Shown one piece after another: positions 3,871 through 10,297 of a DNA stretch of 64,000 nucleotides. A program made the translations under genes and the position numbers. The DNA is taken from positions 1-64,000 of the forward strand of contig VFZE01000024.1 in the NCBI GenBank assembly GCA_016871315.1, in the 5' to 3' direction. Each line of letters begins with the position of its first letter. The first letter of the stretch is position 1. The stretch is from Acidimicrobiia bacterium (GTDB lineage: Bacteria; Acidobacteriota; Terriglobia; Bryobacterales; Bryobacteraceae). The notes beneath the pieces were generated by a model. The model was not told the DNA's origin, ran no database searches, and saw only the letters and a program-made list of their open reading frames with translations.

Positions 3871-4413
3871 CTAGCGGCGGTACAGATAGAGCGTATGCGA
3901 GCGGCCTTCGCCGTCGTCGTCAATGCTCTCCACCTTCTCCGCCGTCCAACCGGAAAACTCAAAGTCATGCGACACGATGCGGGCGCCCTTCTTGAGCTGC
4001 TTTTCCAGCATCGGCCGGATCTTGTCGTTGGAGCTCGGCAGCAGATAAACCGTCACCAGATCGGCGCCGCTGAAGTCCTGCTTCATGATGTCGCCGTTAA
4101 TGATGCGTGCGATCTTGTCCAAGCCCAGCTTACGGATCTTATCGCTGCTCTGCTTATAGAGATCCTCATCCAGTTCCACACCGGCTGCCGTCGCCTTGAA
4201 TTTCTCCGCGGCCATGATGACGATTCGCCCGTCGCCGCTGCCGAGATCGAACATCTTCTCGCCACCCTTCAACTCGCCGAGGCGCAGCATCCGGTCCACC
4301 ACCGATTCCGGCGTTGGGTAATACGGCGCAAGCTTCTCCGTGGCATTCTGCGCGGACAGGACGGCGGCCATCCCAGCCACCACCATCCCAAGGATTTGTT
4401 TTCGAGAATGCAT
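3871..4413 (-). CDS. Exported SAM-dependent methyltransferase-fold protein
   Basis: A 180-aa protein started at the ATG at 4413, which has a good ribosome-binding site (AAAGGGAG); a longer open frame upstream has no such site. The N-terminus MHSRKQILGMVVAGMAAVLSAQ looks like a signal peptide or anchor. A class I methyltransferase fold follows: motif I is DLGSGDGRIV, preceded by YYPTPESVVDRML, and a later acidic strand (INGDIMKQDF) fits the usual order. Export is unusual for a SAM enzyme because SAM is cytosolic, so the N-terminus may be a membrane anchor instead. The target is unknown. It is the first gene of the minus-strand run and has a recognisable promoter at 4447-4476. Confidence 0.75.
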   Translation of the reverse strand: MHSRKQILGMVVAGMAAVLSAQNATEKLAPYYPTPESVVDRMLRLGELKGGEKMFDLGSGDGRIVIMAAEKFKATAAGVELDEDLYKQSSDKIRKLGLDKIARIINGDIMKQDFSGADLVTVYLLPSSNDKIRPMLEKQLKKGARIVSHDFEFSGWTAEKVESIDDDGEGRSHTLYLYRR

Positions 4414-4446
4414 AGCTATCTCCCTTTGACCTCCCGACCCTAGTAG

Positions 4447-4476
4447 TTTATAGCAGTCCGCTGGAACATGCGTCAC
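4447..4476 (-). promoter_or_regulatory. Predicted sigma70-type promoter for the methyltransferase/kinase/bshA run
   Basis: Read on the minus strand, GTGACG (4476-4471) is followed after 18 bases by TATAAA (4452-4447). These match the -35 and -10 consensus well except at the first and last bases of the -35. A transcript would start near 4440, leaving a leader of about 27 bases with the AAAGGGAG ribosome-binding site before the ATG at 4413. The prediction rests on sequence match and spacing only. Confidence 0.5.
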
Positions 4477-4529
4477 CCCCTGTCCGGCGCCCGCCCGGCG
4501 GGGAATCGGCACAATGATATGCTTAGGGC

Positions 4530-6197
4530 GTGTTGAAGCTGTTTTCGTTGTTTTTGCTTGTTACGGGCGGATCTTTCGCCCAAAGCCCGCTGCTGGGTCT
4601 TTTGAGCGAGGAACTCCATCGCAATTTCCAGGTGCTGTCGCGGAAGGCGGACCCGCCCGCCTATTACATTGCCTACGCGGTGACCGATCAGGAAACCGCC
4701 AATGTTTCCGCGACCCTCGGCGTGATCACAGGGAACGACCGGCGGAAGATGCGGGTACTGGACGTGACGGTCCGCGTGGGAACGCCGGCGCTGGACAACT
4801 ACCACACGATCCGCGGTGAGATGGGACATTTCACGGCGGGCATTCCCATCGCCCTCGATGATTCCCCTGACGCGATCAAGCTCAAACTGTGGTCGGAAAC
4901 CGACCGCTGCTACCGTTTGGCGGCACAAAGGTTGATCAACATACGGACGAATAAGGAAGTCCGGGTGGCCGATAAGGAGGATTCCCACGATTTCTCGCGC
5001 GAGCAGCCGGAGAAGTTCGCCGCGGAAGCGCCCAGATTGCTCTTCGACGATGCCGCCTGGGCGGCCCGGATGCGGAAACTCTCCGCGCCGTTCGCCAAGT
5101 ATCCGTCGATTCTCAACTCCGGTTTGGCCGTGACGGCGCAACGTGAAGTGAAGTACCTGGTCAACACGGAAGGGACGCGTGTGAGCCACGGACAGCCCTT
5201 TTCCAGGGTGACCATTCAGGCCCAGGCGAAAGCATCCGACGGGATGGACCTGGCAACCTTTGATGCATTTACCGCCGCCGATCCGGCCAATTTGCCGAAG
5301 GATGCCGAGATCGCCGCGGCTGTCGACAAGGTGGCATCCGATCTGAATCAGTTGCTCGATGCGCCTCTGGTCGATCCATTTGTCGGTCCGGCCATCTTGT
5401 CGGGACGTGCGGCGGGAGTATTTTTCCACGAAATCTTCGGCCATCGCGTGGAAGGCCACCGTTTGAAAGACGAATCCGACGGCCAGACCTTCGCCAAAAG
5501 CGTGGGCTCCCCCGTGCTGCCGGAGTTCATTTCCGTCACCTTTGATCCGACACTGCGCCAGGCGGCGGGCGAAGACCTGAACGGGTTCTACGCTTTCGAC
5601 GACGAAGGCGTGAAGGCCCGGCGCGTCACTCTGGTGGACGGCGGCATCTTGAAGACATTTCTCATGTCGCGAACACCCGTGCCCGGTTTTGAAAGCTCCA
5701 ACGGCCACGGGCGGCGGCAACCCGGAGCGGAAGTCGTCGCGCGCCAGTCCAACCTGCTGGTGGAATCCACCAAGCAGGTTCCCGAGGCGCGCCTGAAAGA
5801 GATGCTGCTCGAGGAGATCAAGCGCCAGAACAAGCCCTACGGATTCTACTTTCAAGAAATCACCGGCGGCTTCACCAACACGGGCCGCCGCGGAATCCAA
5901 GCATTCAAGGTGATCCCGCTGGTGGTGTACCGCGTCTATGCGGACGGTAAACAGGAACTCGTGCGCGGCGCCGATATCGTCGGCACGCCGCTGGCCAGCT
6001 TTAACAAGATCATCGCGACCGGCCAGAAGCTGGAAGTCTTCAACGGCTATTGCGGAGCCGAGTCCGGCAACGTGCCGGTTTCCGCCGTCTCTCCGTCCAT
6101 CCTGGTGTCGGAGTTGGAGGTGCAGAAAAAGGAAAGCTCGCGCGACCGCCCGCCCCTGCTTTCCCCGCCGGTCATCTCCACGGGGGCTTCCAAATGA
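4530..6197 (+). CDS. Exported TldD-like zinc metalloprotease subunit (TldD/PmbA superfamily)
   Basis: A 555-aa protein of the TldD/PmbA (U62) superfamily, started at the GTG at 4530. The N-terminus LKLFSLFLLVTGGSFAQ is a probable signal peptide, unlike the cytosolic E. coli proteins. The metal-binding motif HEIFGHRVEGH (HExxxH) is intact near residue 300, and the C-terminal region keeps the conserved Cys in GYCGAESGNVPV. In the known family TldD is the active partner of a TldD-TldE heterodimer that cleaves unfolded peptides. The next gene overlaps by 4 bp and encodes a paralogue without the metal motif, so the two probably form such a heterodimer outside the cytoplasm. The substrate is unknown. 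Confidence 0.85.
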   Translation: MLKLFSLFLLVTGGSFAQSPLLGLLSEELHRNFQVLSRKADPPAYYIAYAVTDQETANVSATLGVITGNDRRKMRVLDVTVRVGTPALDNYHTIRGEMGHFTAGIPIALDDSPDAIKLKLWSETDRCYRLAAQRLINIRTNKEVRVADKEDSHDFSREQPEKFAAEAPRLLFDDAAWAARMRKLSAPFAKYPSILNSGLAVTAQREVKYLVNTEGTRVSHGQPFSRVTIQAQAKASDGMDLATFDAFTAADPANLPKDAEIAAAVDKVASDLNQLLDAPLVDPFVGPAILSGRAAGVFFHEIFGHRVEGHRLKDESDGQTFAKSVGSPVLPEFISVTFDPTLRQAAGEDLNGFYAFDDEGVKARRVTLVDGGILKTFLMSRTPVPGFESSNGHGRRQPGAEVVARQSNLLVESTKQVPEARLKEMLLEEIKRQNKPYGFYFQEITGGFTNTGRRGIQAFKVIPLVVYRVYADGKQELVRGADIVGTPLASFNKIIATGQKLEVFNGYCGAESGNVPVSAVSPSILVSELEVQKKESSRDRPPLLSPPVISTGASK

Positions 6198-7957
6198 GAG
6201 GACTCGTTCTGTTGATAGCCGGCGCGTTAGCGCTGGGAGCCCAGAACAATGCCGCCACGGAAAAGGAGCAAGGACCGATCCTCCGCGCGCTGGCCGAGGA
6301 GTTGGACCGGTCCCGCACGCTCCAACTGGCCGGCGTCGAGACCCCCTATTTCATCGAATACTCGTTGGACGACCTGCACGGCTTCGCCGCCGTGGCCTCG
6401 CATGGCGCCATCATCAGCTCCAACGCCACCAGGCTCCGGCTTCCCCGTGTCCAGGTGCGTGTCGGTGACTACGGCTTTGACAACACAAACTACATCTTCT
6501 CCGATTTCTTCGGCCGCATCGGCGGAGCGCGCCTGCCGCTGGAAGACGACTATGGCGTCCTCCGCCATCACTACTGGCTGCTCACTGACCGCGCCTTCAA
6601 GGGCGCGGTGGAGGCGATCGCAAGGAAGCGCTCGGCGCTGCGCAACGTCACCGTCACGGAGGAAGTAAACGACTATGCGAAGGCCAAGCCGGAAGCGCTG
6701 GTGCAGGACCTGCGGCCCATCTCCATGCGCGAGGGAACCTGGACTAGCCTGGCGCGCGAATTGTCTGCGCTGTTCTGTCACTACCCGGCTCTAACCGGTT
6801 CACAAGTGGAAGTGGAGTCCTCCTTTTCCAACACCTACTATCTGAACACCGAAGGCACGCGCGTTCGCTATCCCGACGACTTGTTCACCGTGCGTATCCG
6901 TGCCGGTGCGCAGGCGCCGGACGGCATGCCCGTCCGCGATTCCATGGGTGTGCACGCGCGCACCCCGGGAGCCATACCCCCGCAACCGGCGCTGGAACGC
7001 TTGGTGCGCGAGCTCGCGTCGAATCTCACCAGCCTGCTCACCGCTCCGGCGGGCGAAGACTACTCCGGTCCGGTGCTGGTGGAAGAGGCGGCATCGCCCC
7101 AGCTCTTTGCGCAACTCATCGGCGCCAATCTTGGCCTTACGCGCAAACCTGTCGCCGAACCCGGCCGCACGCCCCCCGTGCCGTCAAGCGAACTGGAAGG
7201 GCGCATGGGCGCCCGGATTCTGCCCGACTGGATGGACATCGTCGACGACCCCACGCAAGGCGAGTACCGCGGCCACCAATTGCTGGGCTACTTTCCCATC
7301 GACCTGGAAGGCGTCGTCCCGCGGCCTCTGACGGTCATCGAAAAGGGCTCTGTCAAAAACTTTCTACTCACGCGTCAGCCGGTGCGGGGTTTTGAAGGCT
7401 CCAATGGCCGCGCGCGGCTTCCCGGCGCTTTCGGAGCCAAGGCGCCCGTCTTCAGCAACCTCTTCGTCAAAGCACGCGAAACGAAATCGGCGCAGGAGTT
7501 GAAAAAGAACCTGCTCGATATGGTGACCCAGCGCGGCAAACCGTACGGACTAATCATCCGCAAGCTCGACTTCCCCACCATGGCGACTCCCGATGAACTG
7601 CGGCGGCTCAGCGCCGCCTCCGGCCAGCGCGGCGGCGCGACGCGCCTCACCGCCACTCCCATGCTTGTCTTCCGTGTTTATCCGGACGGCAAGGAAGAAC
7701 TCGTGCGCGGAATGCGCTTCCGCGGCCTGAACGTCCGCAGCCTCCGCGACATCATCGCCGCTTCCGACACCGACAACATCTTCGATTTCATCGGAAACGG
7801 ATCCCCGCTTCCCCCGGCGGGCGTGGCCGGTTACGTCTCCGGACATACCGTGGTTGCGCCGTCCGTCCTGTTTGAGGATCTGGAACTTGACCGCATCGAG
7901 GAGGATTGGCCAAAGCTGCCTGTGGTTCCGGCGCCGGCTTTGGCCAGCTGCAAGTAG
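6194..7957 (+). CDS. Exported TldE/PmbA-like partner lacking the zinc motif
   Basis: A 587-aa paralogue of the preceding TldD-like protein, started at the ATG at 6194 overlapping the upstream stop (ATGA). It has its own signal peptide (MRGLVLLIAGALALGAQ). It aligns along its length, for example YYLNTEGTRVRYPDDLFTVRI against YLVNTEGTRVSHGQPFSRVTI, and PVRGFEGSNGRARLPGA against PVPGFESSNGHGRRQPG. Where TldD has HEIFGH, this protein has AQLIGA, so all three metal/catalytic positions are lost, and the C-terminal Cys is also absent. This is how the inactive TldE subunit differs from TldD. A structural partner role is inferred. lptFG follows after 6 bp. Confidence 0.82.
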   Translation: MRGLVLLIAGALALGAQNNAATEKEQGPILRALAEELDRSRTLQLAGVETPYFIEYSLDDLHGFAAVASHGAIISSNATRLRLPRVQVRVGDYGFDNTNYIFSDFFGRIGGARLPLEDDYGVLRHHYWLLTDRAFKGAVEAIARKRSALRNVTVTEEVNDYAKAKPEALVQDLRPISMREGTWTSLARELSALFCHYPALTGSQVEVESSFSNTYYLNTEGTRVRYPDDLFTVRIRAGAQAPDGMPVRDSMGVHARTPGAIPPQPALERLVRELASNLTSLLTAPAGEDYSGPVLVEEAASPQLFAQLIGANLGLTRKPVAEPGRTPPVPSSELEGRMGARILPDWMDIVDDPTQGEYRGHQLLGYFPIDLEGVVPRPLTVIEKGSVKNFLLTRQPVRGFEGSNGRARLPGAFGAKAPVFSNLFVKARETKSAQELKKNLLDMVTQRGKPYGLIIRKLDFPTMATPDELRRLSAASGQRGGATRLTATPMLVFRVYPDGKEELVRGMRFRGLNVRSLRDIIAASDTDNIFDFIGNGSPLPPAGVAGYVSGHTVVAPSVLFEDLELDRIEEDWPKLPVVPAPALASCK

Positions 7958-7963
7958 TCCGCT

Positions 7964-10297
7964 ATGCGCATTCTGTCGCGCGCCATCTTTGGCGAGATAT
8001 GCAAGTCGGCGCTGCTGGGCACAGTGCTGTTCACTTTCGTGCTGTTTCTTCAAAAGCTGGGCAGCGGCAAGCAGTTCGAGATTCTCGTGCGCGGCTCGGC
8101 TCCGCCGTCCACGGCAGGCTACCTGGTGGCGCTGCTGCTGCCGCCGACGCTGATCTTCGCGTTGCCCGTGGGAACACTGGTTGGCGTGCTCATCGGGCTT
8201 GGACGGATGTCCGCCGACGGGGAGATCACGGCGATGCGTGCCTGCGGGGTTCCCAGCCGCCGCATGGCCGCTCCAGTACTCGCCTTCGCGCTTCTGGCCA
8301 CCGCCGTAACCGCGTCGGCGTCACTGTGGTTTGCTCCGCTGTCGATCCGCGAAACCTACCGCGTCCTGAACCAGGTGATCGCGCAGCAACTGACAGCCGA
8401 GATTCAGCCGCGCGTGTTCGAGGAGCAGTTCACCAATACGAACAATATCCTCTACGTGGGTGACGTGATCCCCTCGGCCGACTCCGCCGTGCAGTGGCGC
8501 AACGTCTTCATCGCCGACCTCACTCCGGCGGAGGTGCGCAGCAGGCCTGGCCGCGAATACGGCGACGCCCCCAGCATCACGGTGGCATCGGAAGCTTTCG
8601 CGATTCCGGACGCGGCCAGCAACCGCATTCAGCTCCATATGAAAGGCGTCTCGACGCATGAGCTTGGCGCCGACCCGGCCATTTACTACAACACGGCAGC
8701 CCCCAAGCAGGACCAGGTACTCGCGGCCAGGTCGCGATCAGAGGCCAGCGCCAAGGCCTACATTTCCATGGACACGCGCCCGCTGTTCCAGGAGCAGAGC
8801 GTCGAGGCCCGCATTGAACTCCATCAGCGTTTCGCGCTGCCGGTGGCCTGCGTGCTGCTGGCGATGGTCGGCATTCCGCTCGGGGCCAGTTCGCGCAAAT
8901 CGGGCAAGTCGGGCGCGTTCGTGCTCACCGTGCTGCTTGCGTTCCTCTATTACATGGGACTTGTCAGCATGATCCGGCTGGCGCAGCAGGGCAAGCTTCC
9001 GCCCGCGCTGGCCGTCTGGACGCCAAACCTCATCTTCACTCTGTTCGGGCTGGCGCTGCTCATCGGGCTGGAAAAGCCGGGCGACCGTGATCTCGTCTCG
9101 CGCCTCCGCCGCCTATTCGACAATGCTTGGGCGTTTGTCCGGTCCCTGCTGACCTCGGCCGGCAACGGCCGCGCGTCGCTCGCCCCGCGCGTTCCACGGC
9201 TGCCGATCCTGCCCGGCGTCGTCGACACCTACGTGCTCTCGAGCTTCCTCTTCTATTTCGCCGTTCTGCTCGCCAGCTTCGTCATGATGGCGCACGTGTT
9301 CATCTTCTTCGAGCTGCTCGGCGATGTCTTCGCCAACAGCATCCCCCTGCACCGCGTCCTCACCTACCACATCAACCTGACGCCCAAGCTGATCTACGAC
9401 TCAGCTCCGATGGGTGTTCTGGTCGCCGTGCTGGTCGCCTTCGGGATCCTGGCCAAGAACAACGAAGTCACCGCGATGAAGGCCTGCGGCGTCAGCCTCT
9501 ACCGCCTGAGCGTGCCCGTGCTGGTGGCCAGCTTTCTGCTGAGCGCCGGGCTCTTCGCCTTCGATCATTACTACATCCCTGAAGCCAACAGAATTCAAGA
9601 GAGCATTCTCAACGAGATCAAGAACCGCCCCGCGCAAACCTACTTGCGGCCGGACCGCAAGTGGATCTTCGGCATGGGTTCGCGAATCTACTACTACAAG
9701 CATTTCGATTCGGCGCAGAACGTCATGGTTGGCGTCAACGTCTATGAGCTGCATCCGGAGACGTTCCGGCTGCTGCGCCACATTCACGCGGAAACGGCGC
9801 GATGGGAGCCGTCGCTCGAAAAATGGATCTTTCAAAACGGCTGGAGCCGCGACATACAGGGCGTATCGGCCGGCTATCAGCCGTTTCAGGCAACCACCTT
9901 CCCGGAACTCGAGGAGCCGCCCTCCTGGTTCCTGCGCGAGATGAAGCAGGAAAAGCAGCTCAACTTCCTCGAGCTGGACGGCTACATCGCGGAGCTGCAG
10001 CAGAGCGGCTTTGACACCGTGCGCCTGAAGGTGCAGTTCCACAAGAAATTCTCCGTGCCCGCATTCGCTGTCATCATGGCGTTGCTTTCCATTCCGTTCA
10101 GCTTTCTCACCGGCAATCGCGGCGCCATGGCCGGCGTCGGCGTCAGCTTCGGCATCGCCATCGCCTACTGGGCCGTCAGCAAGCTGTTCGAGGAGATCGG
10201 TAACGTGAATCAACTCCCCGCCTTCATTGCCGCATGGTCGCCCGATGCACTGTTCTCCATGGCAGGCATGTACCTGTTCACGCGGATGCGGAGTTGA
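7964..10297 (+). CDS. LptF-LptG fused lipopolysaccharide export permease
   Basis: A 777-aa protein made of two tandem YjgP/YjgQ permease domains. Domain 1 (about 1-375) has the family pattern ITAMRACGVPSRRMAAPVL and a C-terminal membrane bundle containing VLLAMVGIPLGASSRKSGKSG. Domain 2 (about 405-777) repeats it with EVTAMKACGVSLYRLSVPVL and FSVPAFAVIMALLSIPFSF. Each half has a large periplasmic beta-jellyroll region between membrane segments. In most Gram-negative bacteria LptF and LptG are separate proteins that dimerise and, with LptB, extract LPS from the inner membrane. Here both are one chain. lptB and lptC are not in the window. It is co-directional with the TldD/TldE-like genes. Confidence 0.9.
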   Translation: MRILSRAIFGEICKSALLGTVLFTFVLFLQKLGSGKQFEILVRGSAPPSTAGYLVALLLPPTLIFALPVGTLVGVLIGLGRMSADGEITAMRACGVPSRRMAAPVLAFALLATAVTASASLWFAPLSIRETYRVLNQVIAQQLTAEIQPRVFEEQFTNTNNILYVGDVIPSADSAVQWRNVFIADLTPAEVRSRPGREYGDAPSITVASEAFAIPDAASNRIQLHMKGVSTHELGADPAIYYNTAAPKQDQVLAARSRSEASAKAYISMDTRPLFQEQSVEARIELHQRFALPVACVLLAMVGIPLGASSRKSGKSGAFVLTVLLAFLYYMGLVSMIRLAQQGKLPPALAVWTPNLIFTLFGLALLIGLEKPGDRDLVSRLRRLFDNAWAFVRSLLTSAGNGRASLAPRVPRLPILPGVVDTYVLSSFLFYFAVLLASFVMMAHVFIFFELLGDVFANSIPLHRVLTYHINLTPKLIYDSAPMGVLVAVLVAFGILAKNNEVTAMKACGVSLYRLSVPVLVASFLLSAGLFAFDHYYIPEANRIQESILNEIKNRPAQTYLRPDRKWIFGMGSRIYYYKHFDSAQNVMVGVNVYELHPETFRLLRHIHAETARWEPSLEKWIFQNGWSRDIQGVSAGYQPFQATTFPELEEPPSWFLREMKQEKQLNFLELDGYIAELQQSGFDTVRLKVQFHKKFSVPAFAVIMALLSIPFSFLTGNRGAMAGVGVSFGIAIAYWAVSKLFEEIGNVNQLPAFIAAWSPDALFSMAGMYLFTRMRS

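Follow-up and report, generated by a model that had tools for sequence, protein, structure and literature searches.

A putatively exported TldD/TldE-like gene pair of Bryobacteraceae with an apparently independent inactive subunit

The stretch of DNA considered here, referred to as the window, comprises 64,000 nucleotides (positions 1 to 64,000, forward strand) of contig VFZE01000024.1 from the Bryobacteraceae assembly GCA_016871315.1. It carries two codirectional genes, named A and B in this text, which encode a TldD-like protein with a metal-site motif and a protein of the same fold without it, and which are followed by the gene of a fused LptF-LptG permease (Table 1). An in-frame TAG at 4524-4526 sets the earliest possible start of A at GTG4530 (or TTG4533). 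Both products match the PmbA_TldD_3rd domain (9.3e-29 for A and 3.8e-14 for B), and E. coli TldD matches A at 8.4e-13. The initial annotation had placed the two genes and their short overlap correctly, and had read the overlap as a sign of equal production. The stop codon of A overlaps a start codon in the frame of B by 4 bp in 81 of 123 pairs, and by 1 bp in 14 of the 123. The 4-bp overlap suggests coupled translation; equal output is not demonstrated by it.

Table 1. Features of the A-B locus, with positions in the window
Feature	Position	Strand	Size, measure or basis
Gene A, putatively exported TldD-like catalytic subunit	4530..6197	+	555 aa, GTG start
Putative Sec-type signal peptide of A, MLKLFSLFLLVTGGSFA, then Q	4530..4580	+	hydropathy 2.36; cleavage site by eye
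HEIFGH zinc motif, A residues 300-305	5427..5444	+	alignment to E. coli TldD
Cys508 of A, opposite the third metal ligand Cys454 of E. coli TldD	6051..6053	+	alignment; ligand role from PMC5810440
Stop/start overlap ATGA (4 bp), A/B junction	6194..6197	+	from sequence
Gene B, putatively exported TldD-fold subunit without metal site	6194..7957	+	587 aa, ATG start
Putative signal peptide of B, MRGLVLLIAGALALGA, then Q	6194..6241	+	hydropathy 2.97; cleavage site by eye
AQLIGA, B residues 306-311, at the position of HEIFGH of A	7109..7126	+	A/B alignment
Fused LptF-LptG permease ORF, 6 bp downstream of B	7964..10297	+	777 aa, two LptF/LptG domains

The metal-site residues divide the two proteins throughout the family. 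H300, E301, and H305 of A are invariant in 54 of 54 selected A sequences and align, together with C508, with H262-E263-H267 and C454 of E. coli TldD. The wider set consisted of open reading frames scoring above 500 on the A profile and shorter than 900 aa, or above 450 on the B profile; the 54 A and 56 B rows were obtained by thinning, at higher cut-offs, and one fusion (L194) and one split frame (L145) were excluded from them. HE..GH is present in 127 of the 128 distinct A sequences, and 124 of them also have C[GR]AESG. The four sequences without the complete set comprise two cut by contig ends, one with a broken frame, and one degenerate lone copy. B lacks a cysteine at the position aligned with C508, HExxxH was found nowhere in its 120 distinct sequences, and none of these has histidine at both metal-site positions, while two have it at the second position only. 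Hence the motifs named in the initial annotation, HEIFGH with the C-terminal cysteine in A and AQLIGA without it in B, stand at the aligned positions as described. The pairing of an active-looking with a motif-less protein is likewise real, but it is not in itself unusual, as ordinary TldD/TldE shows the same division; the unusual features of this pair are its apparent export signals and its separate origin.

E. coli TldD/E is described in PMC5810440 as a heterodimer in which the metal is bound by TldD alone, through both histidines of HExxxH and Cys454, and whose proposed activity is the N-terminal trimming of unfolded peptides. TldE is reported there to lack the catalytic residues of TldD, and this 2017 paper assumes it to be a copy of TldD whose centre was lost. 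AlphaFold models of A (from an alignment of 54 rows) and of B (56 rows), both with a mean pLDDT of 89.9, match ten TldD/TldE entries with Z of 25.2-36.2 for A (residues 16-535) and 22.4-25.5 for B (residues 22-569). The best structural match of A is TldD (5nj5_A, Z 36.2, rmsd 3.4, 444 aligned residues), whereas B is about equally near to TldD (5njf_C, Z 25.5) and to the TldE chains (Z about 24). The likeness to the E. coli pair (TldE being PmbA; MEROPS M103, PDB 5NJ5) thus extends over the whole fold of both subunits and to the presence of HExxxH plus Cys in one of them only; the fold and chemistry are of an already known kind.

The pair also differs from the known proteins. Identity in the structural alignments is 12-19% for A and 11-18% for B across the ten entries, and 18-19% and 13-14%, respectively, to TldD. 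The C-terminal Pfam family PF19289 is matched above its cut-off of 22 (A 100.6 bits, B 52.8 bits), whereas PF01523, the N-terminal domain, gave no match to either protein at E up to 10, a search in which the HMMER filters drop most weak matches; the N-terminal part of both models keeps the TldD/TldE fold all the same. Archaeal-type TldD (NF040952) is the top NCBIfam match of A, with 94.1 bits over residues 193-531; its curated cut-off of 635 bits lies far above this, and B scores 20.8. Similarly, A reaches 42.9 against a cut-off of 513 (NF008006), and B 15.5 against 438 (NF008268, the PmbA equivalog). In the A rows of the tree described below, the equivalents of H262, H267, and C454 occur in 23 of 24, and those of Glu263, Glu270, and the brace residue Arg362 in 24 of 24. 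N-deacetylases belong to the superfamily as well, to judge from the title of Vobruba 2022, a paper cited in PMC10885120, and A/B could in principle be a small-molecule amide hydrolase of this kind. Such a role is very unlikely, since nothing in this analysis points to a small-molecule substrate and, of the nine positions at which A was compared with TldD, two alone (D272 and K456) generally differ.

Both proteins begin with short hydrophobic N-termini, which the initial annotation had recognised as signal peptides. Scored by the best 11-residue Kyte-Doolittle mean within the 45 residues before a conserved position, 52 of the 54 family rows of A and 52 of the 56 of B lie at or above a cut of 1.8. 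The mean is 1.06 for E. coli TldD and 1.05 for TldE, and among the TldD/TldE-type controls, scored by a slightly different measure over the first 50 residues, 4 of 47 rows (36 distinct proteins) reach 1.8. These four rows represent three proteins, every one with a twin-arginine N-terminus. Such N-termini are therefore typical of the family and rare among the controls, and export of both A and B is likely from their sequences.

Twin-arginine motifs also occur within the family itself, in 7 of 56 B N-termini (L143, L147, L136, L142, L156, L157, and L124) and in 2 of 54 of A (L139 and L165). No such motif is present in the A genes paired with L124, L156, and L157, which were among the A rows checked; mixed export of the two subunits by Sec and Tat is possible. 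TldD-type proteins with Tat-like N-termini such as MISRRVFLAA are found elsewhere in the phylum (L067:3003-4535 and L215:1489-3012) and on contig C2 of the same genome (L064:4402-6042, minus strand). They resemble the A/B pair in being TldD-type and apparently exported, and differ from it in their Tat-like rather than Sec-like signals and in their tree position with TldD/TldE. The TldE-like partner adjoining L064 has no visible signal and hence might travel with its folded Tat partner.

The pair is present in several phyla, and its members mostly lie side by side. The counts given here refer to the loci fetched rather than to whole phyla, and the sample sets share assemblies. In a phylum sample of 149 genomes, a close A (at least 376 bits) is present in 22, the own genome included, and one further genome has a distant A-like gene; among 41 near relatives, again with the own genome, B of at least 255 bits is present in 31. 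The best 80 of at least 589 stretches in a scan of named genomes come from metagenome-assembled genomes titled Acidobacteria, Planctomycetota, Verrucomicrobiales, Gemmatimonadota, Cloacimonadota, Elusimicrobia, Zixibacteria, WOR-3, and others. The two genes are neighbours in 20 of 22 loci of the phylum sample, in 29 of 31 among the near relatives, and in 75 of 80 of the named set. The exceptions are of several kinds. Three loci are cut by contig ends (L122, L144, and L155), two of them in the named set, which also holds one A-B fusion (L194). In others the partner is present at a distance: A and B lie on different contigs in G051, in L188 a B stands about 10 kb off on the same contig, and L123 has room beside A but no adjoining B, a piece of B being found elsewhere in that genome. 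Of the genomes in which A has room without a B beside it, a B was located elsewhere in G051 (36% identical over residues 13-569), G193 (507 residues in a 597-aa frame), and G393 (a 120-residue piece).

The best evidence that A and B act as one enzyme in one compartment comes from fusions that occur naturally. A single open reading frame of 1152 aa encodes both of them in L194 (titled Gemmatimonadetes). L194, L236, L238, and L239 each contain both halves behind a single N-terminal signal, joined by a short linker in which no second signal is seen by eye, and L237 begins at a contig end and spans the A/B junction. HE..GH and the cysteine are retained in all four fusions seen from their start. 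Among 200 Gemmatimonadota genomes, 26 have any match and eight a match of the A/B type, of which five are fused (G189, G376, G387, G269, and, from a contig end, G276) and three are separate genes. The single-signal fusions strongly indicate that the two proteins operate jointly and on the same side of the membrane and, with the conservation of the pair, make a heterodimer likely.

The simplest explanation of such a pair would be that A is TldD and B is TldE, and that this lineage has merely gained signal peptides. The shared fold, the active-site residues, and the division between an active and an inactive subunit all suit this explanation, which is nevertheless most improbable on phylogenetic grounds. 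Identity between A and B is 29% along the entire proteins (566 columns). In a tree of 84 rows (LG+C20, careful search), thinned by identity and, for B, also by random draw, and with TldD and TldE rows labelled by the presence or absence of HExxxH, A+B and TldD+TldE are separated by a branch supported at 100/100; B (100/98) and TldE (100/99) are groups of their own. Forcing B and TldE into one clade worsens the log-likelihood by 136 and is rejected by the AU test (p-AU 3.1e-6), the tested clade having been chosen after inspection of the tree. The grouping of A with TldD against B with TldE is rejected with it. Hence neither the tree nor the equivalog cut-offs, which both proteins miss widely, place A with TldD or B with TldE/PmbA, and further TldD/TldE-type pairs are present on contigs C5, C31, and C2 of the same genome. 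Alignment to E. coli TldD, part of what the initial annotation proposed, bears out the metal ligands of A, but A and B are not TldD and TldE proper; they form a separate branch with an inactive subunit of its own. Because of the 100/100 branch and the rejected B+TldE clade, the active/inactive split appears to have arisen twice, and the sequences are most simply read as two separate events, in each of which a TldD-like ancestor was duplicated and one of the copies silenced.

B as a decaying pseudogene was considered and is ruled out, as its frame is open in most loci and third-position changes dominate in a single comparison. Against the copy of the same genus, the changes in that comparison are distributed over the codon positions as 0.247/0.163/0.567, and B is by this measure under purifying selection. 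It diverges faster than A, with a mean p-distance of 0.64 versus 0.51 over 118 pairs (Spearman 0.74, uncorrected for kinship). Two short TldD-like proteins from two genomes of the phylum (L227:1000-2172 and L228:877-2175) with HEILWH or HEIFWH give weak BLAST matches to TldD queries (70.5 and 94 bits) and were kept outside the tree.

From the observed motifs, the folds (as models), the pairing, the fusions, and the tree, we infer export, a heterodimer, peptidase activity, and a class of substrate. Together, A and B probably make up one exported metallopeptidase of the TldD/TldE superfamily, each contributing half of a self-enclosed enzyme that trims unfolded peptides in the periplasm and that has arisen by its own duplication. 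Both proteins would be secreted to the periplasm and assemble there. A would hold the single catalytic centre, in which His300, His305, and Cys508 would bind zinc or iron and Glu301 would activate water, and B, catalytically dead and of the same fold, would complete a hollow shell. Unfolded peptides would thread through a narrow pore and be trimmed as in E. coli TldD/E, and the active and inactive genes would have come from a duplication separate from that of TldE. The peptidase mechanism is fairly likely by homology. Candidate substrates could be remnants of secreted proteins, signal peptides released by cleavage, or peptides taken up as food.

Several observations weigh against this proposal. 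The tether of the TldD clamp, the pair D272-K456, is mostly absent from A, with His at the first position in 18 of 24 rows and Ala at the second in 23 of 24, and the substrate-binding details of A may therefore differ from those of TldD. The signal peptides are called from hydropathy only, and two of the 54 A rows and four of the 56 B rows stay under 1.8. In the tree, A as a single group is weakly supported (50/49), the branch that separates A+B from TldD+TldE is long (1.80, to the A+B side of the drawing root), and gene conversion between the adjoining genes could mimic a separate origin. There are also unpaired copies: G033 (L062) has a lone A-like gene with no visible signal and no separate B in the genome (E 0.001), and G161 has a degenerate lone A (L121:3433-5127, minus strand) beside an intact pair elsewhere in its genome. 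In the lone A of L121, HEIFGH is replaced by AEVLGK and the cysteine is absent; the metal site seems to have been lost once more in this copy.

The permease gene downstream offers another function for the pair. The initial annotation had named the next gene as the lipopolysaccharide (LPS) permease, which it is, with LptF and LptG in one open reading frame; this was the sole LptF/LptG frame found in the genome, and the match spans residues 1-777 in most loci of the family with room for it. A and B might accordingly belong to LPS or outer-membrane biogenesis, clearing the LptFG permease, with which they form an operon, of peptides or damaged subunits. The gene was counted as adjacent when a tblastn match (one query, E 1e-5) started between -60 and +250 bp from the end of B, and loci with less than 500 bp left or with no B were set aside (one own-family, no same-order, one phylum-sample, three nearest named, and seven other named loci). 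In the own family, LptFG comes immediately after the pair in 17 of 19 testable loci, as it does in 36 of 38 testable loci of the nearest named set (L123-L163), and the two sets share some assemblies; the border to the other named loci (L164-L202) was drawn post hoc at a drop in identity and is not taxonomic. It is absent in 2 of the 19 own-family loci, and elsewhere it was found in none of 10 loci from other families of the same order, none of 20 from the rest of the phylum sample, and none of 32 other named loci (0/62), although a divergent LptF/G could escape this search. Outside the family of the window, clustering of the unannotated neighbouring genes gave no family besides A and B that is shared by more than 10 of 70 loci. 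Coupling to LPS export as a general rule is thereby ruled out, and a role of the pair in LPS biogenesis is rather unlikely. A-B-LptFG is a lineage-specific operon, and this gene order may reflect convenience or a local function. The envelope link that the initial annotation expected from a comparison of neighbours thus holds within the own family and the nearest named loci and not in general; its periplasmic peptide-processing heterodimer survives as an apparently exported, TldD/TldE-like pair of a catalytic-looking and an inactive subunit.

The same neighbour comparison bears on whether A and B mature or destroy specific secreted peptides after export, such as leaders of ribosomally made, modified peptides (RiPPs) or bacteriocins, in the manner of TldD/E with microcin B17. 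Leader removal by TldD/E is well described in PMC5810440 and PMC10885120. This role is distinctly unlikely here: that the pair occurs in several phyla, each time beside other genes, suggests a general one, and the neighbour families mentioned above include none common to more than 10 of the 70 loci, although a peptide cluster could escape such unannotated clustering.

Two further observations concern the surroundings of such genes. In E. coli K-12 (L203:2584-4029 and 4459-6001, minus strand), tldD adjoins the codirectional yhdP, annotated as a phospholipid transport factor, which may be regarded as a loose parallel to A-B-LptFG. Divergent from A, at 3871-4512 on the minus strand of the window, lies the gene of a protein with a methyltransferase fold whose N-terminus, when read from an internal ATG, resembles a signal peptide; chemistry dependent on S-adenosylmethionine (SAM) outside the cytoplasm would be odd.

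In the literature searched (titles and openings of abstracts, with most subscription papers outside its scope), nothing relevant was found on an exported TldD, and likewise nothing on an exported sister branch, an independent inactive subunit, its spread, or single-chain fusions. As a tentative wider view, one that we hold somewhat less probable than its negation, several phyla would possess a periplasmic, ATP-independent, self-enclosed peptidase whose catalytic/dead design evolved a second time from a TldD-like homodimer, which serves the envelope as a general clean-up chamber for unfolded peptides and which in Bryobacteraceae has been drawn into an LPS-export operon. TldD/TldE are widespread and their described roles are intracellular, and an exported sister branch, occurring in several phyla that are little studied, would be a self-compartmentalised protease of the envelope. 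If the dead subunit is indeed independent, the two branches constitute a natural replicate, which would show what an inactive half must retain and why the passage from a homodimer to an active/inactive pair recurs. The single-chain fusions provide a ready construct for studies of structure and activity.

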